From the IMG/VR virus record IMGVR_UViG_3300028025_001941, positions 1 to 45,547 of that record: 45,547 bases of DNA; one strand, written 5' to 3'. Origin of the DNA: a virus. Under the pieces are notes generated by a model. That model had not been told where the DNA came from. It made no database searches and saw nothing but the letters and a program-made list of their open reading frames with translations. Made by a program: the position numbers and the translations under genes. Numbering within the stretch: the first letter of the stretch is position 1; the number at the start of each line of letters is the position of its first letter. This document shows positions 7,421 to 23,343 of the stretch, piece by piece.

Positions 7421-7828
7421 TTAATACCAATTCCTACGTTGATGGTGTTTCCAAGCCTTGCAAGGTGTGCCATACCTATGCTCAATGTACTTGTACGCCT
7501 TGAGTATCTGTATTGCTGGGTCCTTGCTTTTTTCTTTAAGCATTTGTGCTATGCCGTAAGCACTACTTCCTTGCTGGTTCTTGGCTAGATGGTCGAACCT
7601 ACTCTCTTTAGTGAAGATGTAGACAATACAGGCCCGCTGAGTTTTATCCCAGCCCCATCCAGCCTTTGCAAAACTTATAGCCATAGCCTTGTTCCGTTGC
7701 TTATCTTCCCACGTGGCTTTCGTCTTAATACGTGGTTTTATCACTACATCTACCGTAACTGTGTGAGTTATCGGGGCAAGTGAGGCAAGTAGAACAAGTG
7801 CTGTGACTATAATCGCTCGCTTTTTCAT
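7421..7828 (-). CDS. Secreted lytic transglycosylase (SLT-like)
   Basis: 135 residues. An N-terminal signal or anchor (MKKRAIIVTALVLLASLAP) is followed by a compact lysozyme-fold domain. IFTKESRFDHLAKNQQGSSAYGIAQM carries the catalytic Glu (residue 75) in the ESRFD context and the GSSAYGIAQ motif of soluble lytic transglycosylases. The C-terminus is short and basic. It is unusual here, away from the main lysis cassette and inside the early-type regulatory array. It may remodel the wall early, add to lysis, or be carried in the virion. It overlaps the WhiB gene by ATGA. Confidence 0.8.
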   Translation of the reverse strand: MKKRAIIVTALVLLASLAPITHTVTVDVVIKPRIKTKATWEDKQRNKAMAISFAKAGWGWDKTQRACIVYIFTKESRFDHLAKNQQGSSAYGIAQMLKEKSKDPAIQILKAYKYIEHRYGTPCKAWKHHQRRNWY

Positions 7829-8169
7829 ACACTAATTCTACCAATTATCTTTCTAACATCACGTCTGTGTCGCTGCTCGTGTCGCACAGAATTATGTGTG
7901 TGTTTAAGGCCAGCCAATAACGCCCGTTCACCAGTCAATAACCCGCCCCAAATTGAGCCTACTCCACCCACGCTTAGAATGTTTTCCTGTTCTAATCCTT
8001 GCTTCAAACATTGGACTTTAACTGGGCAGTCGTGGCAGATTTCAATTGCTTCTACACTTCTTAAGACGTGAAGTCTTTGCTCGTCTACCAGCGTTGAGTT
8101 TTCGTAGTGCCATAAGTCTGGGTCTGGGTGCCCATTACAGAGCCCCTCTGCGTGCCACGTGCGGTTCAT
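7825..8169 (-). CDS. WhiB-family transcriptional regulator
   Basis: 114 residues. Four cysteines, C11, C45, C48 and C54 (CHDCPVKVQC), form the Wbl iron-sulfur site. They are followed by the family's turn, here GSIWGGLLTGERA, and a basic C-terminal tail (RHEQRHRRDVRKIIG) for DNA contact. WhiB proteins occur only in actinobacteria and their phages and act with the host principal sigma factor. It overlaps its neighbours on both sides by 4 bases (ATGA). It is a likely regulator of phage or host transcription, and the best single host marker here. Confidence 0.92.
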   Translation of the reverse strand: MNRTWHAEGLCNGHPDPDLWHYENSTLVDEQRLHVLRSVEAIEICHDCPVKVQCLKQGLEQENILSVGGVGSIWGGLLTGERALLAGLKHTHNSVRHEQRHRRDVRKIIGRISV

Positions 8170-8842: not shown

Positions 8843-8870
8843 TTTATTCTCCTGTCTTAAGTAGTTAGTT

Positions 8871-9197
8871 TTATCCGTAAATTACTTTGCCGAACATTGC
8901 AACTTGCAGCACAGCGTCAGCGCATATCGAATCATACTTATCGAAATTAAATAAGTCCATATACACCTGTTGATTAGCAATCGGTAAAGCCTTGGCTAAA
9001 TCTTCAATGCCAATAATCTTTGTAATCATACTTCCATCTTCGTCTTCGCCTGTGACTTCAATCTGACCGACAGTTTCCCAGTCAGCGTCACCGACATACT
9101 CTGCCTCTGTAAAGTGGTCGCCAAAAGAGAATGGGCTTGACCCAAAAACAGTACTCCATAATTCTTTTTCATCTACTTCGAACTCAATCTTAATCAT
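8871..9197 (-). CDS. Unknown acidic protein
   Basis: 108 residues starting MIKIEFEVDEKELWSTVFGS. Acidic, mixed alpha/beta, with DWETVGQIEVTGEDEDGSMI and a C-terminal hydrophobic helix (ADAVLQVAMFGKVIYG). A perfect SAS (9203-9217) stands just before the ATG. Its start overlaps the stop of the upstream gene (ATGA). No family recognised. Confidence 0.7.
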   Translation of the reverse strand: MIKIEFEVDEKELWSTVFGSSPFSFGDHFTEAEYVGDADWETVGQIEVTGEDEDGSMITKIIGIEDLAKALPIANQQVYMDLFNFDKYDSICADAVLQVAMFGKVIYG

Positions 9198-9364
9198 TTG
9201 TATTCTCCTGTCTTAAGACACTCTGTCATTGTTCCCCAGCAGTAGCCTTCGCCCTGCACGTACCAAATATGGTTGATGAATTGGTACCCTGCCCATAGAA
9301 GTAGCAAGGTAAGTGTGATTAGCGAGAAGAACATAAACGCCTCGCCTCGTGGTGTTAGTTTCAT
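9194..9364 (-). CDS. Small single-pass membrane protein
   Basis: 56 residues. A hydrophobic span (FMFFSLITLTLLLLWAGYQF) follows a short charged N-terminus, and the C-terminus CLKTGEYK is encoded by the SAS of the next gene. There is ATGA overlap on both sides. It may act on the host envelope, for example in superinfection exclusion; this is inference from topology only. Confidence 0.65.
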   Translation of the reverse strand: MKLTPRGEAFMFFSLITLTLLLLWAGYQFINHIWYVQGEGYCWGTMTECLKTGEYK

Positions 9365-9504
9365 AATAAGACTCCCATCATTTTCCCGATTTTAATTGCA
9401 TTGTCTGTGTCACAATCGTCGCATATCAAATTAGTTTTGTCCAGTTTATTCCACCATTGTGGCGACTTTATTTCCCAACCGCATTGGTTACATATGCATT
9501 TCAT
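9361..9504 (-). CDS. Small zinc-ribbon-like protein
   Basis: 47 residues, MKCICNQCGWEIKSP then a CDDC pair: a classic CxxC...CxxC ribbon. The start at 9504 is chosen because the zinc motif begins there and AGAGG lies upstream; the longer open frame upstream overlaps the previous gene and looks non-coding. Stop and next start overlap (ATGA). Confidence 0.65.
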   Translation of the reverse strand: MKCICNQCGWEIKSPQWWNKLDKTNLICDDCDTDNAIKIGKMMGVLL

Positions 9505-9733
9505 TTTTATAAACCTCTTTCTGTGCGGGTAAACACTCGACGCACCAAGCGAAATAGTGCCAGCGAACGTTGCCTTCTTTGTCAGCCCAAACAATATCGT
9601 CTTCCTCGTAATCGGTCAAGCATTTGTAACACGTGTACATTTGTGGCACTTCTTGCCCTGTTGCGAATGAGGCTAGAAAGGTTGCGCTATCTATGAGCGA
9701 AACCCAGTCTACGCTCTCGGAACTATTTTCCAT
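9488..9733 (-). CDS. Zinc-finger-like protein
   Basis: 81 residues. An N-terminal helix (DSATFLASFATG) is followed by YTCYKCLTDYEEDDIVW and FAWCVECLPA, giving two CxxC pairs about 30 residues apart, a treble-clef or ribbon arrangement. A perfect SAS (9739-9753) decides the start at 9733. The C-terminus overlaps the next gene by 17 bases. Confidence 0.7.
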   Translation of the reverse strand: MENSSESVDWVSLIDSATFLASFATGQEVPQMYTCYKCLTDYEEDDIVWADKEGNVRWHYFAWCVECLPAQKEVYKNEMHM

Positions 9734-9748
9734 TTTTATTCTCCTGTC

Positions 9749-9976
9749 TTAAGCCGTAAGTTGATTGTGTAAGTCCAGCATATTTGAAATAGTTTCGGCT
9801 ACTTCTTGCTCGTTGCCTACGTAATTGCCGTCACCTGCATAGCCAAACTCCCACGTTTTTGTGTCTGTGTCATAAATTGTACCGTTTGGAAATGCACTCT
9901 CCTCGCTTTCGTAGTCTAAACTCCAGCGATTTGTCTCTTCATCAAACATAATAACGAACTGATATTGTTTAGCCAT
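9749..9976 (-). CDS. Unknown small acidic protein
   Basis: 75 residues, MAKQYQFVIMFDEETNRWSL, then DTDTKTWEFGYAGDGNYVGN and a C-terminal helix. The pattern suggests a small beta-rich fold. An SAS (9981-9995) precedes it. Its own stop codon TAA lies inside the CTTAAG of the next gene's SAS, so stop and signal share bases. Confidence 0.7.
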   Translation of the reverse strand: MAKQYQFVIMFDEETNRWSLDYESEESAFPNGTIYDTDTKTWEFGYAGDGNYVGNEQEVAETISNMLDLHNQLTA

Positions 9977-10130
9977 TTCTTTCTCCTGTCTTAAGTGGTA
10001 ATTGTGTGCTTACTTTCTCGCCCAGATATACATTGCTTGGGTCCCGCAATAATTCTGCTGTCGTTTCTAAATCGTAAAGCCCTCTGAACTTGCGCCCATA
10101 AGGGTCGGTGCCTTCAACTATGTGCAACAT
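9969..10130 (-). CDS. Small protein ending in SAS-encoded LKTGE
   Basis: 53 residues, MLHIVEGTDPYGRKFRGLYD then a helical segment and the C-terminus PLKTGERNG, whose LKTGE is read from the next gene's SAS. A slightly variant SAS (CTTAAGACAGGAAAG, 10134-10148) precedes its own start. It resembles nothing I can name. Confidence 0.6.
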   Translation of the reverse strand: MLHIVEGTDPYGRKFRGLYDLETTAELLRDPSNVYLGEKVSTQLPLKTGERNG

Positions 10131-10289
10131 TTACTTTCCTGTCTTAAGTCGTAATTTATTTTGGATTACTTTTCTTGCCTTATAAAGAACACCCGCGAGG
10201 GCCATAAGTCCAAGCAATTCCCAATCTATTGACAGGTAAGCCCAATCTATTGAGAACATAAAGCCGTATTTGTCTAGTTCTATTTTCAT
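10131..10289 (-). CDS. Small membrane-associated protein ending in LKTGK
   Basis: 52 residues from MKIELDKYGFMFSIDW. A hydrophobic stretch (WELLGLMALAGVLY) suggests one membrane helix, followed by a basic tail (KARKVIQNKLRLKTGK). The final LKTGK is encoded by the SAS serving 10130. The start at 10289 follows GGAG at normal spacing. Confidence 0.55.
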   Translation of the reverse strand: MKIELDKYGFMFSIDWAYLSIDWELLGLMALAGVLYKARKVIQNKLRLKTGK

Positions 10290-10291
10290 TT

Positions 10292-10417
10292 TTATTTGCT
10301 CCAGCCTGTTAGTAGTTGCTCGGTTATACAATTTGAACACGCCTGAATTACTTGCCCCGCTTTATCAACGGCGAAAGTGTTGCGCTTCTTGTTGCACTCT
10401 GTACATTTTTGCTTCAT
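10292..10417 (-). CDS. Tiny zinc-ribbon protein
   Basis: 41 residues, MKQKCTECNKKRNTF and ACSNC: a minimal CxxC...CxxC ribbon. GACAGGAGG, a shortened SAS, lies seven bases upstream and sets the start. Upstream lies a 130-base gap with structured element D (10462-10509). Confidence 0.65.
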   Translation of the reverse strand: MKQKCTECNKKRNTFAVDKAGQVIQACSNCITEQLLTGWSK

Positions 10418-10461
10418 TTGTTTGCCTCCTGTCGGCGGGCTACCTTGCTCCGCTTCGACGT

Positions 10462-10509
10462 GCCCCGCTAGTGTCTCGCACACTTCGCCCCCTGTCAAGG
10501 GTGCGGGGC
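10462..10509 (-). ncRNA. Structured leader element D (tRNA-minihelix-like three-way junction)
   Basis: On the minus strand, GCCCCGC at the 5' side pairs with GCGGGGC at the 3' side over 7 perfect base pairs. Inside are two hairpins, CCCT-TGAC-AGGG and AGTGT-GCGAG-ACACT; the second can also be read as a 7-base TGCGAGA T-loop-like loop on GTG/CAC. It is followed by A, then about 28 bases (with GCGG/CCGC) to the GACAGGAGG ribosome-binding site. A perfect SAS at 10531-10545 lies upstream, with no start codon directly after it. It is one of four such elements; see A, B and C. Confidence 0.55.
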
Positions 10510-10547
10510 TGCCTAACTTCTAGGCTTTTATTCTCCTGTCTTAAGAC

Positions 10548-10730
10548 TTAACTGCAACTTCCTGCCTTGCATTTATGGTGCGGGTGATTCTCTGGGTGAA
10601 ATTTTGCAACCGACTCGCGGAGGTCTTCCAACTGGTCCCGAATCCATAACTCGTGCGCGGGTCTAAGTGTCATCACTTGCAACATCCACTCGTAATGCGA
10701 AATCTTGCAAAGTGTTTCGTGTCTGGTCAT
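10548..10730 (-). CDS. Small helical protein with Cys/His-rich C-terminus
   Basis: 60 residues, MTRHETLCKISHYEWMLQVM, then a long helix and ENHPHHKCKAGSCS, with His and Cys that could bind metal. It starts directly at the stop of the preceding gene (TAAATG). Unknown function. Confidence 0.6.
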   Translation of the reverse strand: MTRHETLCKISHYEWMLQVMTLRPAHELWIRDQLEDLRESVAKFHPENHPHHKCKAGSCS

Positions 10731-10895
10731 TTACTCGGCCTCCCTTTTGTCGAATAGATACCCGCCCATTGCTGCGCCTAATCCTGTGTGGATAACAATA
10801 TCCCCCGCAGAATCCTCGGTTACTCTTGCTCCTTTTAGATTCTCCTCGACCCACTCTTTCAGGTCTTGAATTGTGTCTATCTCTTGAAGTTGCAT
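10731..10895 (-). CDS. Unknown small acidic protein
   Basis: 54 residues, MQLQEIDTIQDLKEWVEENL, then AGDIVIHTGLGAAMGGYLFD and an acidic end. Tail-to-head junctions TAAATG on both sides and GAGGGGGGC upstream support it as a coupled gene. A longer overlapping frame in the same place has an arginine-rich, low-quality translation and was set aside. Confidence 0.6.
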   Translation of the reverse strand: MQLQEIDTIQDLKEWVEENLKGARVTEDSAGDIVIHTGLGAAMGGYLFDKREAE

Positions 10896-11120
10896 TTACT
10901 TGCCCCCCTCTGTGGTCTCGCCCCATTTTTTAAGGCGTTTGTACTCGCTAGGCTTTACGTGAATGGTCGGGGTCTCGCCGTCATCGTAGCCCTTAATTGC
11001 TGCGCTGCCCTCGTAGCCCTCCTCAATCCAACCCAAGACCTGCCCCGCTGCCGTCACTCTTAGCCAACCCCTGCGAGGGTTGCCGTTTGTATCGTTGATT
11101 GTTGCGATTCTTACTAACAT
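10896..11120 (-). CDS. Unknown small protein
   Basis: 74 residues, MLVRIATINDTNGNPRRGWL, then VTAAGQVLGWIEEGYEGSAA and a basic YKRLKKWG near the end. Beta-rich start. A perfect SAS (11127-11141) immediately precedes the ATG. No family recognised. Confidence 0.7.
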   Translation of the reverse strand: MLVRIATINDTNGNPRRGWLRVTAAGQVLGWIEEGYEGSAAIKGYDDGETPTIHVKPSEYKRLKKWGETTEGGK

Positions 11121-11228
11121 TTATTTTTCTCCTGTCTTAAGTAGTAAATCTCTGGCTGCTGCTACGTCATCGTTCCATTCTAGGGTGAGGCTGTGATTCA
11201 ACCAGCCCACGATTTCATTTATACTCAT
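11121..11228 (-). CDS. Micro-ORF ending in SAS-encoded LLKTGEK
   Basis: 35 residues, MSINEIVGWLNHSLTLEWND then AAARDLLLKTGEK. Its last residues are read through the SAS of the next gene. Its own SAS variant (ATCTCCTGTCTTAAG on the plus strand, 11235-11249) lies before the start. Despite the small size, start signal, coupling and position make it a likely gene. Confidence 0.55.
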   Translation of the reverse strand: MSINEIVGWLNHSLTLEWNDDVAAARDLLLKTGEK

Positions 11229-11274
11229 TGACTTATCTCCTGTCTTAAGGCGGGACGCGGTGCCCCTGCCTCGT

Positions 11275-11319
11275 GCCTTGCTAGGTCTTGAACCTGTGCC
11301 GACTATATCGGGGCAAGGC
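11275..11319 (-). ncRNA. Structured leader element C (tRNA-minihelix-like)
   Basis: GCCTTGC and GCAAGGC form a perfect 7-bp closing stem. Inside are CCGA-TATAG-TCGG and AGG-TTCAAGA-CCT, the latter with a 7-base loop matching the tRNA T-loop pattern TTCRANN. Element B shares 17 identical bases here (CAGGTTCAAGACCTAGC) but has an entirely different, still perfect closing stem, which is compensatory change. A further hairpin (AGGC-GGG/CCC-GCCT) fills the 25 bases to the SAS at 11249. Confidence 0.6.
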
Positions 11320-11327
11320 GGGCCTGT

Positions 11328-11498
11328 CTAGGCCTTGAAGTTGATGTCTACTATCTCAACCTTGGCGACGTGCTCGATGTCCAAGGTCCCTTGAATTACC
11401 GCGTTTATCTTCTCCCAGCCGTAGGCCTCATAAGCGGGGAAAGACTCTCGGCCTTGCTTGTCTGTAACTTTTAGCGCGATTCCTGTAGGTGTTGCCAT
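11328..11498 (-). CDS. Unknown small protein
   Basis: 56 residues, MATPTGIALKVTDKQGRESF, then YEAYGWEKINAVIQG and VAKVEIVDINFKA. The alternating strand-helix-strand pattern suggests a compact alpha/beta domain. A perfect SAS (11506-11520) is 7 bases upstream, and element B lies further up. The stop is followed at once by element C. Confidence 0.65.
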   Translation of the reverse strand: MATPTGIALKVTDKQGRESFPAYEAYGWEKINAVIQGTLDIEHVAKVEIVDINFKA

Positions 11499-11550
11499 TT
11501 CTTTTTTCTCCTGTCTTAAGTCATAAGGTGAGATTGTCCCGCCTTACCGC

Positions 11551-11595
11551 GCCCCCGCTAGGTCTTGAACCTGCGCCCGCTTTAGGTGCGGGGGC
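11551..11595 (-). ncRNA. Structured leader element B (tRNA-minihelix-like)
   Basis: GCCCCCGC and GCGGGGGC form a perfect 8-bp stem around AGG-TTCAAGA-CCT. The 5' strand can instead pair locally (CCCGC with GCGGG), so two mutually exclusive folds exist. Thirty bases with a TAAGG/CCTTA hairpin separate it from the SAS at 11520. It directly follows the stop of 11603-11875 and leads the 11328-11498 gene. Confidence 0.6.
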
Positions 11596-11602
11596 TGTGC
11601 TT

Positions 11603-11875
11603 TTAGCCTTCTAGGCTGAAGCAATTCCTGCAGAGATTGAGCCCGCAATCCTCGCGTATTTCAAGAAAGGCACTCCACTCTTGGCAATCTTCACATTCTG
11701 CGATTTCTCTGCCTTCCCAGATTAGGCGGGCGAATTTGCCCGACTCGGCCTCGAATAGTGCTTCCTCGATTAGGTCGAACACTATCCCGTCGAATTGCTC
11801 AAATGTGCCACCGCGTGACTTAAGGCCCTCTGAGACTCTCGCCATAGTGGCGAAGTTGATTTCTAACATTTCCAT
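11603..11875 (-). CDS. Zinc-ribbon-like protein
   Basis: 90 residues, MEMLEINFATMARVSEGLKS, then a helical acidic middle and CEDCQEWSAFLEIREDCGLN with CRNC, giving two CxxC pairs. Start at 11875 after AGGGGCAAGAA; an in-frame ATG two codons later is possible. The upstream SAS is a variant with a duplicated TAAGACA (CTTAAGACATAAGACAGGGG, 11882-11901). Confidence 0.65.
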   Translation of the reverse strand: MEMLEINFATMARVSEGLKSRGGTFEQFDGIVFDLIEEALFEAESGKFARLIWEGREIAECEDCQEWSAFLEIREDCGLNLCRNCFSLEG

Positions 11876-11928
11876 TTCTTGCCCCTGTCTTATGTCTTAA
11901 GTCGGGAAGACTTTCTCCCCTAACTTGT

Positions 11929-11969
11929 GCCCCCGTCGGATTGTGAACCCGTACCCGCTAGGCGGGGGC
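11929..11969 (-). ncRNA. Structured leader element A (tRNA-minihelix-like)
   Basis: GCCCCCG and CGGGGGC form a perfect 7-bp stem. The inner arm CGGG-TTCACAA-TCCG has a 7-base T-loop-like loop, and a CCCGC-CTA-GCGGG hairpin competes with the closing stem. Then come A, a GGGGAGA-AAG-TCTTCCC hairpin, and the SAS variant 27 bases downstream. It starts just after the SprT-like gene stop. Confidence 0.6.
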
Positions 11970-11976
11970 TGTCCCG

Positions 11977-12606
11977 CTATTCTTGAATCTCGAACTCTTG
12001 TTCGCAGTTCTGGCACTTAGGGGCGCATAGTTCGAACACTTTACGACTTAGGCGAATCTTAGCCTCGCAGGCGCAGATTGCCACGAGATTGTTCTTGTCG
12101 CGCCCTTTCTTGCCTGCTGCCTGCTCGGTGTCTGCTGTGAGGGCTAGGGCTGCCTCAATGAGTGCCAAGGCCTCGCTCCATCGCTCGGCGCACTCGTCGG
12201 AAACCTCGGTGTTGCTCCACCCGATACGCTTAGCCTGTGTGATTGTGAGGCCTAGGGCCTCGGCTGTCTGCTTGAACTTCTTATTGTGGTAACCGTCACC
12301 TGTGACGCCTTGGATTCCATTCTGGAGGTCTAGGCTGTGCGCTGTCTCGTGAAGAAGTGTGCCAAGGATAGCGCGGGCACCGCGTGGGAAATACTCGGCG
12401 GAAATCATAATCTCGTGGAATGAATCCTCGCCAGAAATCCAAGGCTTGGCGTGTGTGAAGTGTCCCATTGTGTTGCCTGTCTTACGGGTGACGAGGATTG
12501 TGGCGCGGGGTGCGCCTGTCTTCTCTTGAATCAAGGCGTGAGCAGATTCTAGGGCCTCGGTGATTATTGAAAGATTCTCGGTCTTTCTTGTTGTTGTTGT
12601 TTGCAC
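11977..12606 (-). CDS. SprT-like zinc metallopeptidase-domain protein
   Basis: 209 residues, GTG start fixed by an SAS variant (12611-12625). The HExxH zinc motif is LLHETAHSLDLQ (H86, E87, H90), followed by GYHNKKFKQTAEALGL, as in SprT-like domains. The C-terminus has CACEAK and CAPKCQNCEQEF, a zinc ribbon as in SprT/Spartan relatives. SprT-like proteins are common in actinophages and act as proteases on DNA-protein complexes in eukaryotes; the phage role is unknown. It is the first gene of the minus-strand array, directly after the candidate promoter. Confidence 0.82.
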   Translation of the reverse strand: MQTTTTRKTENLSIITEALESAHALIQEKTGAPRATILVTRKTGNTMGHFTHAKPWISGEDSFHEIMISAEYFPRGARAILGTLLHETAHSLDLQNGIQGVTGDGYHNKKFKQTAEALGLTITQAKRIGWSNTEVSDECAERWSEALALIEAALALTADTEQAAGKKGRDKNNLVAICACEAKIRLSRKVFELCAPKCQNCEQEFEIQE

Positions 12607-18008: not shown

Positions 18009-18211
18009 TGCAGTGGTTAGAAAATGGATTTTTTGACCATCTAGATAAGTTTGCAAACTCTCTAGGTTATGAAAATTATGAAATTGCAATTCCTTTGGCA
18101 ATGGTCAAGTGGAAATCTCCTGAGGATAGGGATGTATTCATTATGACTCTTACCAATCAGGATGTTAAAGGCGGCGGTGCACACAACTTTAATCCATTGG
18201 CGGTGAAGTAA
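18008..18211 (+). CDS. Unknown small morphogenesis-region protein
   Basis: 67 residues, MQWLENGFFDHLDKFANSLG, then a strand-rich KSPEDRDVFIMTLTNQDVKG. Coupled by TAATG at both ends between the low-complexity protein and the 1710-residue protein. No family recognised; perhaps a chaperone for the giant neighbour. Confidence 0.65.
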   Translation: MQWLENGFFDHLDKFANSLGYENYEIAIPLAMVKWKSPEDRDVFIMTLTNQDVKGGGAHNFNPLAVK

Positions 18212-21200
18212 TGTCATTTTGGGATGGATTTCTTAATACATTTAAACAGCGCGAAAGCGGACGTAACTTTATAGGCGATGCTCTTGTGGGTTTAGGCAAG
18301 GCTGTCGTTGCAGCGCCAGGTGCACTTGTAAACCAACTTATTGTTGAGCCTACAGTTAAAGGTTTAGAAAATTCTGCATACAAAGCAGGATATTCTCCAG
18401 AAGAAGTAGCATCTGCTGGTATTGGAATTCAACAGTCCAAGATTGGACAGTTCGCTCAAAAAGAACAAGATAAGTTTATTACACAAAGTCTTACTGCATT
18501 TGACCCACTTCTTCGCGTTGGTGCTGTAGCAGAAGAGTACGTATTTTCGCCATTAATTGCACGTCCAATATCTACAATTAACTTACTTTCAGACCCATAT
18601 AGCCCATTATACAATGATGAAAAGTATGGCAAAGGTGTACAACTAAGCGATATTCGTGATGCTTGGAATCGAAGCGCTGATGTATCTCTTGGCCAGGCAA
18701 TTGTTAAGTCTTCTGGAATGCTCGGAGTAGCACAATCTGCAATCCTTACCGCTAATGGTATGGATATGTCTCAGGTAAATCTTTGGGATGACGAAAGTAT
18801 TCAAAAGAATTTTGTTGACGACAGTTTAGGTTCTTTCATTAGTGGAATGAACGACTTTGTTATTAAGAACATAGCGATTAATGCTGCCTTTGTAGGTGTC
18901 GGTGCAGCCGCTAAGGCTGGCTCACTTCGTGCTGGTCTTAATACAAAGTTTAAGGCTACCGATGCTGAAGCAATGCCTTTGTTTGAAAAGGATATGACCG
19001 ACCATATTGACTTTGTTAATAGTGGCGGGGCTACTGGAACTCAAACTGTAATTGGTCAAGATGTTATAGACCTTGCAGCATCTGAAAATATTGTTGATAT
19101 TATTCGTATTGTAAAAAAGCATAGTTATAACCCTGCTCTCCCAGACCTTATTAAAACAACAAAAGACCCAGCAGTTGTTAGAGACCTTTTGCTTGCAGAC
19201 AAAGGCTACGGTCCAGCGATTGAGCGTCTTGCAGCACTAAGAATGTCTGATGACCTTTGGATACTTGGTGATGCTACTGCTATAACTCGTGGCAGATACA
19301 TTACAGATGGCAAGTTGCCAGACTACACACCAGAACAGCGTGCCCGTTGGACTGCAGCATTTGATGATGCTATAGCAAAAAATCCTAAGCATCAAGAAAT
19401 TTATGATGCTTTCTTGAGACAGGAACTTGATGAGTCTACTGGACTTCTTAATACAGAAGTATTAGCGCTTGGTAAAAACTATAAGCCAATGGAACCAATC
19501 ATTGGTCGCGGTGTTGTTGGGGCTGTTCGCTCACGTGTTGGTCAGATTAAGACCGCTGCTATGGAAAGAAACTTTGTTGGCCTTGGTGGCGTAGCAGAGA
19601 CAGTTCTTGGTGGCAGTATGAAGGGTCCAGTTACAGTCTTAATGCGCCAGTTCGGCACCTATATGCCTAAAGGTATTATTACCAACTCTGGCCTACGTCC
19701 AATGAATGGCGTAGATGAATTGATGTCGGTCTTTGACGACATTCCATTATTTAGAGATGGCTCTAGAATTGTCGAAACTCACACACGTGAGATGATGACA
19801 GCGGCGGCCTACCGTCGTCAAGTTATTGACCGCTTTGTAGCAGCCAAGACCGACGGCGAACGTGCTATTGTTATTGATACAGTAAACAAAGAGATTGCTC
19901 GTACACTTGCTTTCTCACGCGGATACTACGACGTTAATAAAATTGACAATATGGTTGATGAATTAATGTCAGAAATTTACAAAGTCCACTCTGGTCTACG
20001 CAAAGAAGGATTTGCTATGGACCCACAAGGAGTGCGAGTAGTTGTTGACCCACGCACTCAGCGTCAGTTGGCAAACTCTATGCCTATGCTTCCACTAGGT
20101 GAATTTGACCGTATGATTTTGCGTCTTGCACGTTCAGAAAAAAACGTAGTAACAGGTGGTGCAACAGCAATAAAACAGGGAACTGCATCAGCAGCACGTA
20201 CATTATTTGAAGGCTCAAGCAGAATTTTCTCTATTGCTCAACTTTATCGTTTTTCATATATCCCAAAGAATTCTATATTTGAGCCTTTACTAGCAGCAAC
20301 CCTTGCAGAAGGTGTGTCATTTGCAAGGCCAATGTTTACCACCGCAATCTGGAGTACCATCAAAAAGGGTAGAAACATTATTGCCCGAAATGTAGCAAAA
20401 TCAAAAACGCTTGCTCCTGGTGCTAAAAAAGAAATTCAAGACGAAGTTAAGGCGCTCTCAGACCAGTACAATCAGGCTATCCTTAATCGTGATATGGCCT
20501 ATGCAGATTACGAAGCATTCTTTGGAGTTGGAACTGGTATCTCTCCAGCAGCAAAACGTGACTGGTCAGATGAAATTAGAATGCGTCTTAAGGATGCAGA
20601 AAATGACGTTGCTGCAATTGAAGGCAGACTTAATGTTTACGCTACCGAATATGGTCAGCCAATATCGGTTCCATCAATTTACAACTTACGTCGCAGAATT
20701 CAGTATCTTAAAGATGCAAAAGACCCACGCTTTGCTGGAGATATAGCAGCAGCGGAGATGACACTTGCCCGTGCCGTAGAAGACGTTAATACTATGACAC
20801 CTGAATTGAATACTCTTACCGCACAAATTGCCGCAGCATACGACGAAATTGGAAGAGTCATTGAAGCGCTTGGTCCAACTGGTGTGCGCCAAGCAGACCT
20901 ATTCGAGGTATCTGAAGCACGTTACTTAAAAGAGCCTTTCCTTGCAAAAACACAGACTGTGCAATTATCAAATGGTCAAACATTAGAATTTCCTTCTATT
21001 GCAAATCGTGATAATTTTGGCGAAGGTTACCTATCTGAAATTTCTAACAATGCAACACGTACACTTGAATTCTTAGGTAACAAAGCATCAGTTGCTAGAA
21101 CAATCAGCATTAGTGCTCGCTCACCAAAGAGCATAACTAATGTTGCTGACCCAACGTACTTTGATGAACTAGCATTTGTTGTTAATACTCAGATGCGTGG

Positions 21201-23343
21201 CGATTTACTTATTGACAGAATTCTTTCTGGTCAATCTCGTGAACAGTTGCTACAGTGGACAACAACAGGTCAAGGTAAATTCTATATTCGTCAGATGGGT
21301 AAGACTCAAGACGAAGCAATTAGAATGGTTGATGAGCAGATTATATTTGTTCAGAAGTACCTGCCTACTTATGAGGCACGTCAAATGGCTCTTAAGGGTG
21401 AGGTTACTCCATCAGCACTACGACGTGAATTGTCAGAGAATCTAGACCAGATGTCTCCTATCCACCCACTTGATATTGAATACTCAAATGCAAGTCTTAG
21501 GGGTACTCCAGGCGCAGCCATTGATGCAGCGTTAGCAAAAACTTGGAGAACTTTGATGAAGCCAGAAAACGCTATCCGCGAAGTCTGGGGTACAACACGC
21601 CACAATGCAATTATTGCCGAAAGAGCAGAGCGTTTAATTGCTCAGGGACAAACAATTGATGTATCTACAATGAATACAATTCACCACGCTGCAGCAATTC
21701 AACTTGTTGATGAAGTGGCAAAGGTATTCTATACAATTCCACGTCAGCACCGTGCACTTTATCTTGCTCGTGGACTTGCAACATTTCCTAATGCTGCTGC
21801 TTCTGGTATCTATCGTTATAGCCGATTCGCTGTTAAGAAGACTCCACGCTTTGGTGGCTTCCTAAACAGTTACTATGGCCTCTACAACTCATTCGGTGTA
21901 GACGAAAATGGTAACCCAGTTGATGACCCAATGAAGGCTAAGTTCCTTCTTGTTCCTGGAACAAAACAAATGGGACTCAACAATGGCAAGGGTGTCATTA
22001 TTAATGCACGTGCTACAAACTATGTAGCCAACTTCCCAGGTGCTTCCTGGATGGTGCCTATTGCACTTAGCGACATTTATGGAAATAAACCAAACGACGA
22101 AGATGAAATCAAAAAAATGATTGATTCTACATTTGGCAAAATTCCTGGATATTCTTATGACGAACTGTTCCCATATGGAATTGAACCTGATACGCTTAAG
22201 CAACTTGGCAATACATTTACTCCAGCCTGGGCACGTAATTTGGTTCTAGGTTTGACTGCAGATAAAGACACTACAAATAGAATGTTTGTTGATTCTTGGA
22301 TTTCAGAAAACAACCGTCAGTGGATTTTGTACGATATGGGCAAAGGTCCTCTTCCAACAGATAAATCTGTTATTGATGGGGCAAAGAGCATTTATCTACG
22401 TAAGGCACGCACCCAGTTCTTCTCGATTCTTGGTACGCCACAATACGTAGAGTCACGACCAGATTCACTTTATCGTGACTACTACTACGGACTTTTTAAT
22501 GAATATCAGTTAAAGGGTATGTCTTCAACAGAGGCAAGCAAATTAGCCGAAGAAGATTTTAACAAATATATGCAAGCAGAGACTGGCGCACAGTTCCCTA
22601 TGGACCGACTCTTTGTTGGTTCTCAGGATTCTGTTACATATATTACTCCAAGCCAAAAGGCTTACGACAGAATTTGGGATAATTTTCCTGGACTTGCAAC
22701 TAAGTTACGTCAGGTTGACCCATCTGTAATTGGCCTTATGGTTGCTGACCTACCTAAGGAATATAGCCCTCAGGTTAATAAGTTTCTTAACTCAACAACT
22801 GCTCGTTTTCCAGATGGGACAATGGTTAACAAGGCGCTCAAGACACCTCAGTTAGTTGAAGAAGAAATTGAAAAGTCACGTTACTGGGCTGCATACACTG
22901 CAGAAAAGAAACGATACAACGACGCAGCCAAGGCCGCTGGTTACCCAAGTTATCTAAGTGTTCCTGAACTTAAGGCACGCCTTAAAGACTATGCGGAAAA
23001 TACTCTTGGCAAAGGCAGTTTTGCTTGGTCACAGGAATACCAAAAGAATGCAACTAAAGGTAACCAGGCTTGGATTCAATCTCAAGGTCTTGCAACAATT
23101 GTTAAAGACCAAGAGTTTATGAGTAAGTATGGTAAGACTCAGTTCTGGCAGCACGCTAAGGCTTTTGTTAAGTATCGCAACGAATATGCAGCAGCATACA
23201 AAGATGCGCCTACTGGTACAAAGGGAATGGTTAAGGATGCTTGGGCTAACTATCTTGCTTCTAGTTATGATATGTGGGACCCAGTGCTTCAAAGAATGAT
23301 TACAAGATACTTTGAAAATGATAATATGAGGGAGAACAAATAA
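18211..23343 (+). CDS. Very large putative internal virion/ejection protein
   Basis: 1710 residues, the largest gene and about 13% of the unit genome. The N-terminus has several Gly/Ala-rich amphipathic or hydrophobic stretches (GKAVVAAPGALVNQLIV, NAAFVGVGAAAKAGSL). The middle (about 735-900) is coiled-coil-like, with EIQDEVKALSDQYNQAI and LKDAENDVAAIEGRL. The C-terminus is charged and helical. No tape-measure gene is seen elsewhere and the phage looks short-tailed, so an ejected internal core protein is the best guess. Its position before the capsid gene is unusual. No lysozyme motif was found by eye. Confidence 0.6.
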   Translation: MSFWDGFLNTFKQRESGRNFIGDALVGLGKAVVAAPGALVNQLIVEPTVKGLENSAYKAGYSPEEVASAGIGIQQSKIGQFAQKEQDKFITQSLTAFDPLLRVGAVAEEYVFSPLIARPISTINLLSDPYSPLYNDEKYGKGVQLSDIRDAWNRSADVSLGQAIVKSSGMLGVAQSAILTANGMDMSQVNLWDDESIQKNFVDDSLGSFISGMNDFVIKNIAINAAFVGVGAAAKAGSLRAGLNTKFKATDAEAMPLFEKDMTDHIDFVNSGGATGTQTVIGQDVIDLAASENIVDIIRIVKKHSYNPALPDLIKTTKDPAVVRDLLLADKGYGPAIERLAALRMSDDLWILGDATAITRGRYITDGKLPDYTPEQRARWTAAFDDAIAKNPKHQEIYDAFLRQELDESTGLLNTEVLALGKNYKPMEPIIGRGVVGAVRSRVGQIKTAAMERNFVGLGGVAETVLGGSMKGPVTVLMRQFGTYMPKGIITNSGLRPMNGVDELMSVFDDIPLFRDGSRIVETHTREMMTAAAYRRQVIDRFVAAKTDGERAIVIDTVNKEIARTLAFSRGYYDVNKIDNMVDELMSEIYKVHSGLRKEGFAMDPQGVRVVVDPRTQRQLANSMPMLPLGEFDRMILRLARSEKNVVTGGATAIKQGTASAARTLFEGSSRIFSIAQLYRFSYIPKNSIFEPLLAATLAEGVSFARPMFTTAIWSTIKKGRNIIARNVAKSKTLAPGAKKEIQDEVKALSDQYNQAILNRDMAYADYEAFFGVGTGISPAAKRDWSDEIRMRLKDAENDVAAIEGRLNVYATEYGQPISVPSIYNLRRRIQYLKDAKDPRFAGDIAAAEMTLARAVEDVNTMTPELNTLTAQIAAAYDEIGRVIEALGPTGVRQADLFEVSEARYLKEPFLAKTQTVQLSNGQTLEFPSIANRDNFGEGYLSEISNNATRTLEFLGNKASVARTISISARSPKSITNVADPTYFDELAFVVNTQMRGDLLIDRILSGQSREQLLQWTTTGQGKFYIRQMGKTQDEAIRMVDEQIIFVQKYLPTYEARQMALKGEVTPSALRRELSENLDQMSPIHPLDIEYSNASLRGTPGAAIDAALAKTWRTLMKPENAIREVWGTTRHNAIIAERAERLIAQGQTIDVSTMNTIHHAAAIQLVDEVAKVFYTIPRQHRALYLARGLATFPNAAASGIYRYSRFAVKKTPRFGGFLNSYYGLYNSFGVDENGNPVDDPMKAKFLLVPGTKQMGLNNGKGVIINARATNYVANFPGASWMVPIALSDIYGNKPNDEDEIKKMIDSTFGKIPGYSYDELFPYGIEPDTLKQLGNTFTPAWARNLVLGLTADKDTTNRMFVDSWISENNRQWILYDMGKGPLPTDKSVIDGAKSIYLRKARTQFFSILGTPQYVESRPDSLYRDYYYGLFNEYQLKGMSSTEASKLAEEDFNKYMQAETGAQFPMDRLFVGSQDSVTYITPSQKAYDRIWDNFPGLATKLRQVDPSVIGLMVADLPKEYSPQVNKFLNSTTARFPDGTMVNKALKTPQLVEEEIEKSRYWAAYTAEKKRYNDAAKAAGYPSYLSVPELKARLKDYAENTLGKGSFAWSQEYQKNATKGNQAWIQSQGLATIVKDQEFMSKYGKTQFWQHAKAFVKYRNEYAAAYKDAPTGTKGMVKDAWANYLASSYDMWDPVLQRMITRYFENDNMRENK

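Follow-up and report, generated by a model that had tools for sequence, protein, structure and literature searches.

What occupies the few wide gaps in an otherwise compact array of phage genes, and what could it do there? The stretch of DNA analysed here (the window) is a 45,547-base IMG/VR virus record whose minus strand carries, from about 13.3 to 7.4 kb, an array of short genes separated mostly by gaps of 0–28 nt. A start-associated sequence (SAS), CTTAAGACAGGAGA, is repeated in this array, with 26 matches at no more than three mismatches against 4.6 expected, mainly at 8848–11520 (−).

Four structured elements in the gaps of a short-gene array

Under a simple gene call based on Shine-Dalgarno sequences, gaps of 101, 104, 99 and 130 nt each contain one structured element (A to D), while nearly all other gaps are no longer than 28 nt. 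The first-pass annotation had assigned an element to every large gap; this holds for the four gaps of 99–130 nt but not for a 123-nt gap at 9365–9487, where the start call is weak, or for a 404-nt gap further down, both of which are empty. The features of the region are as follows.

11977–12606, minus strand: upstream gene, SprT-like (marginal Pfam score), the first SAS-type gene of the array
11929–11969, minus strand: element A, three-way-junction RNA, P1 GCCCCCG/CGGGGGC, P3 CGGG-UUCACAA-UCCG
11899–11926, minus strand: hairpin 2 after A, fold z −2.8
11881–11901, minus strand: degenerate double SAS (CTTAAGACATAAGACAGGGGC) before the gene after A
11603–11875, minus strand: gene between A and B, 90 aa
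11551–11595, minus strand: element B, P1 GCCCCCGC/GCGGGGGC, P2 CCU/GGG, P3 AGG-UUCAAGA-CCU
11523–11547, minus strand: hairpin 2 after B, based on its sequence and on folded homologous hairpins
11507–11520, minus strand: SAS CTTAAGACAGGAGA before the gene after B
11328–11498, minus strand: gene between B and C, 56 aa
11321–11334, minus strand: hairpin P0 before C, GGCCU-AGAC-AGGCC, with the upstream gene's TAG stop codon inside
11275–11319, minus strand: element C, P1 GCCUUGC/GCAAGGC, P2 CCGA/UCGG, P3 AGG-UUCAAGA-CCU
11247–11272, minus strand: hairpin 2 after C, z −3.5
11236–11249, minus strand: SAS before the gene after C
11121–11228, minus strand: gene after C, 35 aa
10511–10525, minus strand: hairpin P0 before D, GCCUA-GAAGU-UAGGC
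10462–10509, minus strand: element D, P1 GCCCCGC/GCGGGGC, P2 CCCU/GGGG, P3 AGUG-UGCGAGA-CACU
10431–10459, minus strand: hairpin 2 after D (GUCG...CGAC), immediately next to AGGAGG; its homologue in locus L013 was folded
10292–10417, minus strand: gene after D, 41 aa, Cys-rich, start revised from the mechanical ORF list
7825–8169, minus strand: WhiB-like transcription factor

All four elements lie on the minus strand where the first-pass annotation had put them, with the perfect stems it described, and the 17 identical bases that it noted in B and C are indeed present (CAGGTTCAAGACCTAGC). Each element folds with the P1 stem closed, at single-sequence z-scores of only −0.9 to −2.4; because such energies beat those of shuffled sequences by a modest margin only, the case for the fold rests on comparison. 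The common fold is a three-way junction of about 50 nt, the same in A to D. It begins with an ACA flank, followed by the first strand of P1 (7–8 bp), 0–1 base, P2 (2–4 bp), a linker of 2–3 nt, P3 (3–4 bp, capped by a 7-nt loop), a single A, the second strand of P1 and a purine-C. An extra 5-bp hairpin (P0) precedes both C and D.

The elements had been likened to a tRNA minihelix. The resemblance to an acceptor stem and T arm stands, but a bare minihelix is ruled out by P2, a D-arm-like hairpin between the P1 stem and the T-like arm that is present throughout, covaries and makes the structure a three-way junction. A competing fold, and with it a switch, had also been suggested for A and B; the competing fold is not the one of minimum energy, covariation backs the three-way junction, and the switch finds no support.

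The gene after D lacks the CTTAAG part of the SAS and retains GACAGGAG alone. An orphan SAS, CTTAAGACAGGAGA, lies at 10532–10545 (−), a short way upstream of D; no start codon follows it, and it resembles what is left of a lost gene. In relatives, CTTAAGACA also occurs directly 5′ of elements with no gene between (L039 1358, L061 1950, L065 1791, L035 881 and others). The usual 3′ tail of actinobacterial 16S rRNA is ACCUCCUUUCU, to which the SAS part AAGACAGGAG is complementary at eight of nine positions; the SAS may therefore be an extended Shine-Dalgarno sequence. The CTTAAG in front of AAGACAGGAG is a palindrome.

Covariation in related phages

The SprT-like gene at 11977–12606 served to fetch relatives. 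The exact 17-mer common to B and C is present in 50 viral contigs; among the contexts listed, those in L050, L071, L079 and L081 are chance matches without structure, and nearly all others contain the whole element. A first covariance model was built from 15 B-type sequences, with A, C and D outside the training set. It recovered all four elements of the window (A at E = 0.0016) and, at E<0.1, matched nothing else in the 45.5 kb. The matches of this first model were used to build a second, which detected A at E = 4.5e-7 and was applied to loci retrieved with other patterns, where it matched 98 and 18 copies, in addition to 118 in the first set. Most of the 68 loci searched for the 18-match set carried just the loose pattern, by chance; these gave no model match and provide a built-in negative control. 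The search of related phages that the first-pass annotation had suggested thus yields a family of 234 copies, 139 of them distinct, in 122 fetched loci, a few of which may overlap on one contig.

In the first set (58 distinct rows), all 15 base pairs have changed on both sides, 98.7% of cells are paired, and the covariation score is 0.375, compared with 0.124 for shuffled alignments and no more than 0.074 for alignments with a slid partner strand. The two held-out sets are paired in 98.1% and 99.2% of cells, with covariation scores of 0.396 and 0.558 against 0.136 and 0.161 after shuffling. Alignments fitted to a model lean towards its structure, but the rate of two-sided change exceeds what that alone would give. 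P1, for example, is found as GCCCCCGC, GCCTTGC, GCTCTCGC, GCCCTAAT, GCCTTAG, TCCCCTAC, GCCCGCC and further versions, with the exact partner each time. The proposal of a covarying family is borne out, and the homologues did not give the refuting outcome named in the first-pass annotation (stem changes that break pairing, or no homologue with the element beside a start codon). That the fold and its placement at the mRNA level are real is, in our estimation, virtually certain.

The family appears to be undescribed. No element reaches the gathering score of any Rfam 15 family, which rules out a known Rfam family, and the sole match of the window stretch to Rfam at E<=5 is a chance match to the MS2 operator elsewhere in the stretch. 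A literature search found no description of the element. We rate as new the RNA family and its generic intercistronic use, a rating that does not include the mechanism.

Placement at gene borders

The copies sit between co-directional genes. A Shine-Dalgarno sequence and start codon follow, at a median distance of 47 nt, in 187 of the 194 copies with enough sequence, and the stop codon of an open frame lies upstream in 197/200, at distances piled up at 4–14 nt. The order noticed in the window (stop codon, element, hairpin, ribosome-binding site, start codon) therefore holds across relatives. Hairpin 2, the stretch between the element and the ribosome-binding site, is represented by 134 distinct sequences, 98% of which have z < −1; the median is −3.4, the median being used because the mean is spoiled by zero-variance shuffles. 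The ribosome-binding site itself is predicted to be mostly open (mean unpaired probability 0.70), and hairpin 2 masks it inconsistently; a switch acting by its sequestration was rejected on these grounds. No T tract follows hairpin 2, and an intrinsic terminator was likewise rejected.

A P0 hairpin of at least 5 bp, ending two bases before P1 and often with the stop codon inside, is found in 80/199 copies (for example GTGAG-GCAA-CTCAC and GTGAC-GAAA-GTCAC). In these roughly 80 copies, including those in L063, L051, L054, L059 and L024, P0 covaries, has a GNRA-like tetraloop, carries the stop codon in its 5′ arm and abuts P1.

The 187 downstream proteins represent 61 families. A single identical element precedes seven families, each element type precedes 7–36, and C-type elements precede three different genes, in the window, L013 and L006. 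Because copies precede so many protein families, the element is, by sequence comparison, a generic module that is tied to the gene border and not to the identity of the gene. Between one and four copies are found per record.

A precedent for this layout exists in the SAS and ESAS of cluster K mycobacteriophages, where a repeat linked to the ribosome-binding site precedes many short non-structural genes of an actinophage, and an extra upstream element precedes a subset of them (PMC3203893). Like ESAS, the present elements lie upstream of a SAS next to start codons; the SAS sequence differs (CTTAAGACAGGAG). ESAS are 17-bp imperfect inverted repeats, and the departures in the two repeats do not support RNA pairing (PMC3203893). 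The likeness drawn by the first-pass annotation is therefore one of layout and does not extend to RNA pairing, which is strong here. Moreover, ESAS stay with given gene families, whereas the present elements covary as RNA and are free of gene families.

Resemblance to the upper half of tRNA

In tRNA numbering, the family shares several features with the acceptor/T-arm minihelix and with the tRNA-like structures recognised by RNase P, all of them listed after the alignment had been seen. The P3 loop has 7 nt in 136 of 138 distinct copies, and the distance from loop to P1 end is 12 nt in 122/138, the same count as tRNA positions 61–72. C56 (loop base 3) occurs in 135/136 loops and R57 (loop base 4) in all 136; positions 53 and 61 form a G-C pair in 109/138. 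Beyond the stem, R73 is found in 199/199 copies and C74 in 197/199, and G1 opens the stem in 194/200. Within the T-loop pattern reported earlier, C56 and R57 are near-invariant, but the complete signature (U54, U/G55, C56, R57, A58) occurs in only 57/136 distinct 7-nt loops; of the 136 loops, 74 have A58 and 62 have C or U at that position.

The elements differ from tRNA-like RNase P targets in other respects. There is no anticodon arm, only 2–3 nt spanning from P2 to P3, and P3 has 3–4 bp with an unpaired A leading to P1. C75 occurs in 0/198 copies, so no RCC(A) end is offered. A genuine or degenerate tRNA gene is ruled out by both searches: the tRNA covariance model (Rfam RF00005) has no match in the window stretch at E<=5, and ARAGORN finds no tRNA at the elements. 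At its gathering threshold in 12 other loci, RF00005 matches only two genuine tRNAs, both in L169. The geometry of an RNase P substrate, a tRNA-length acceptor/T stack whose stem opens with G1, is found in the spacing and G1 counts given above, with stacking being predicted, and the 3′ end reads R73 C74 in place of RCC(A).

In all subtypes the 3′ flank has the pattern R-C-D-A-G, possibly a signal in its own right. The first base of the P2–P3 linker and loop base 6 covary, 106 of 135 copies having C-G and 28 having U-A, and the two likely form a tertiary pair, to judge from the alignment; since the change coincides with one subclass, the A type, it may be a single event. Base pairing between the P2 and P3 loops was also considered. 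The P2 loop usually ends in G, but ambiguous P2 boundaries let no pair be shown.

A possible role as gene punctuation and its alternatives

We propose that the element may be a cis-acting RNA of about 50 nt in polycistronic phage mRNA that mimics the upper half of a tRNA. The acceptor-like P1 would stack on the T-arm-like P3 with its 7-nt loop, the small D-arm-like P2 being added, with conserved single-stranded flanks, ACA before and R-C after. As a generic boundary mark between genes, it could be acted on by the tRNA-processing or elbow-binding machinery of the host, RNase P being the first candidate. Putative cleavage at ACA|G1, 5′ of P1, would divide the mRNA where one gene ends and the next begins. 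The downstream part would then have a completely paired stem at its 5′ end, with hairpin 2 and an accessible extended Shine-Dalgarno sequence behind it.

Sequence comparison shows the fold, its covariation, the intercistronic co-directional position, gene independence and the tRNA-like spacing. Placement before unrelated genes points to a general expression device as opposed to a gene-specific switch. We see the strongest sign of tRNA mimicry in the conservation of the two ends read by tRNA enzymes, the loop or elbow side and the open end of P1, whose distance from each other stays constant while the letters of the stems change. The elbow, formed by the D- and T-loops, is the face that RNase P recognises by stacking and that RNase Z also grips, and viral and cellular RNAs are known to mimic it to recruit RNase P (PMC4810234). 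Recognition by the tRNA machinery, cleavage and the effects on stability and translation we infer from these likenesses, and we give the whole reading a probability of about 0.36. RNase P cleavage itself is possible; a simple RNase P substrate is made less likely by P0, by the absence of C75 and by the relaxed base 58. Where P0 ends at −2 (80/199 copies), one unpaired base is left before P1, so RNase P access to the leader should be hindered. A passive insulator or a protein-binding site is nearly as likely as recognition by the tRNA machinery.

The strongest competitor, itself somewhat unlikely, is a passive mRNA insulator or stabiliser. Junction, P0 and hairpin 2 would bar the way to exonucleases and to ribosomes that fail to halt at the stop codon, giving each downstream gene a protected mRNA end and independent initiation, and the tRNA likeness would be incidental compactness. 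Strong structures directly after stops and before the ribosome-binding site, the generic distribution over 61 gene families and the mostly open ribosome-binding site (0.70) are all consistent with this. Ordinary GC-rich hairpins would suffice for such a role, however, and passive stability needs neither the near-invariant C56/R57, R73-C74 and ACA flank nor the constant 12-nt spacing.

An RNA-binding protein of phage or host could instead use the element as a site for regulating the translation or decay of several genes together. Several copies per genome within one operon, and conserved loop and flank bases, fit this idea, which we consider unlikely: it is without a candidate phage regulator, the copies per record vary from one to four, and placement follows gene borders and not particular genes.

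A cis-acting role in processive antitermination like that of put or EAR RNAs, with RNA polymerase as the target throughout the long operon, is improbable. Although the elements are oriented with transcription, are GC-rich multi-helix RNAs and recur in a long short-gene array, they always lie between genes and never form an operon leader; the first gene (12606–11977) has no element before it, and the SAS, not a T tract, comes after hairpin 2. Still less probable is a boundary at the DNA level, where the structure would serve DNA in recombination or gene-cassette exchange, or where recombination would explain the spread. Identical elements before different genes (up to seven families), and the C-type elements before three genes in the window, L013 and L006, would suit it, but the orientation and the order of ribosome-binding site and start are constant, and recombination by identity is disfavoured because pairing is kept while the letters change. 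A ligand-binding riboswitch is the least credible of all: the compact junction with conserved loop bases is set against very short junction strands (about 1, 2–3 and 1 nt), 61 unrelated downstream protein families and no consistent alternative pairing to the ribosome-binding site.

If the elements are processed, the putative tRNA mimic would work much like the tRNA punctuation of mitochondria, where tRNA-shaped units lie between the genes of a polycistronic transcript; the elements are not tRNAs, and there is no homology. TRNA mimics of the mascRNA/menRNA type are excised from long transcripts by RNase P and RNase Z. They too are a tRNA-like fold within a long transcript, but they belong to different organisms, and the present elements occur in several copies between genes. 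The tRNA-like metrics lead to a testable claim, that a phage marks its mRNA borders by tRNA mimicry. A more speculative and somewhat unlikely reading is that the family represents a new class of viral RNA, in which mimics of the upper half of tRNA serve as exchangeable gene punctuation and host tRNA machinery cuts or binds, at gene borders, the mRNAs of phages that infect the dominant freshwater actinobacteria.

Phages and host

The nearest GenBank records, OX376640 and OX376641, have a terminase 80% identical to that of the window. In the passages covered, the paper on these phages presents them as Planktophila phages E7 and F5, the first to be isolated on a member of 'Ca. Nanopelagicales', and treats a WhiB-like protein as an actinophage marker, with no mention of the elements there (PMC10202952). 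The window also encodes a WhiB-like protein (7825–8169), and kinship with E7 and F5 suggests that its own host is probably a member of 'Ca. Nanopelagicales'. The next terminase relatives are Streptomyces phages (45–46%); no element is found in the two tested, ZooBear and FlowerPower, or in Actinoplanes phage phiAsp2, which has a distant SprT-like relative. Among 84,980 bacterial and archaeal species genomes, none contains an exact copy of a 22-base B-type pattern, which disfavours a host-derived element for that subtype, and a terminase search of the same genomes returned no relative.

The elements are a structured RNA family outside Rfam 15, in phages of 'Ca. Nanopelagicales' and relatives, which are among the most abundant freshwater bacteria. 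E7 has three elements, at 1385–1436, 1751–1796 and 2161–2210 of OX376640, and F5 has one; these cultured phages offer a direct test system. In relatives L006 (3087–3158), L007 (5003–5074) and L038 (6618–6689), a tRNA-Arg(ACG) gene that the window lacks is found near the array. The window also encodes a protein of 1710 aa at 18211–23343 (+), between the terminase/portal and capsid genes, whose single PHROG match is to a family without assigned function.
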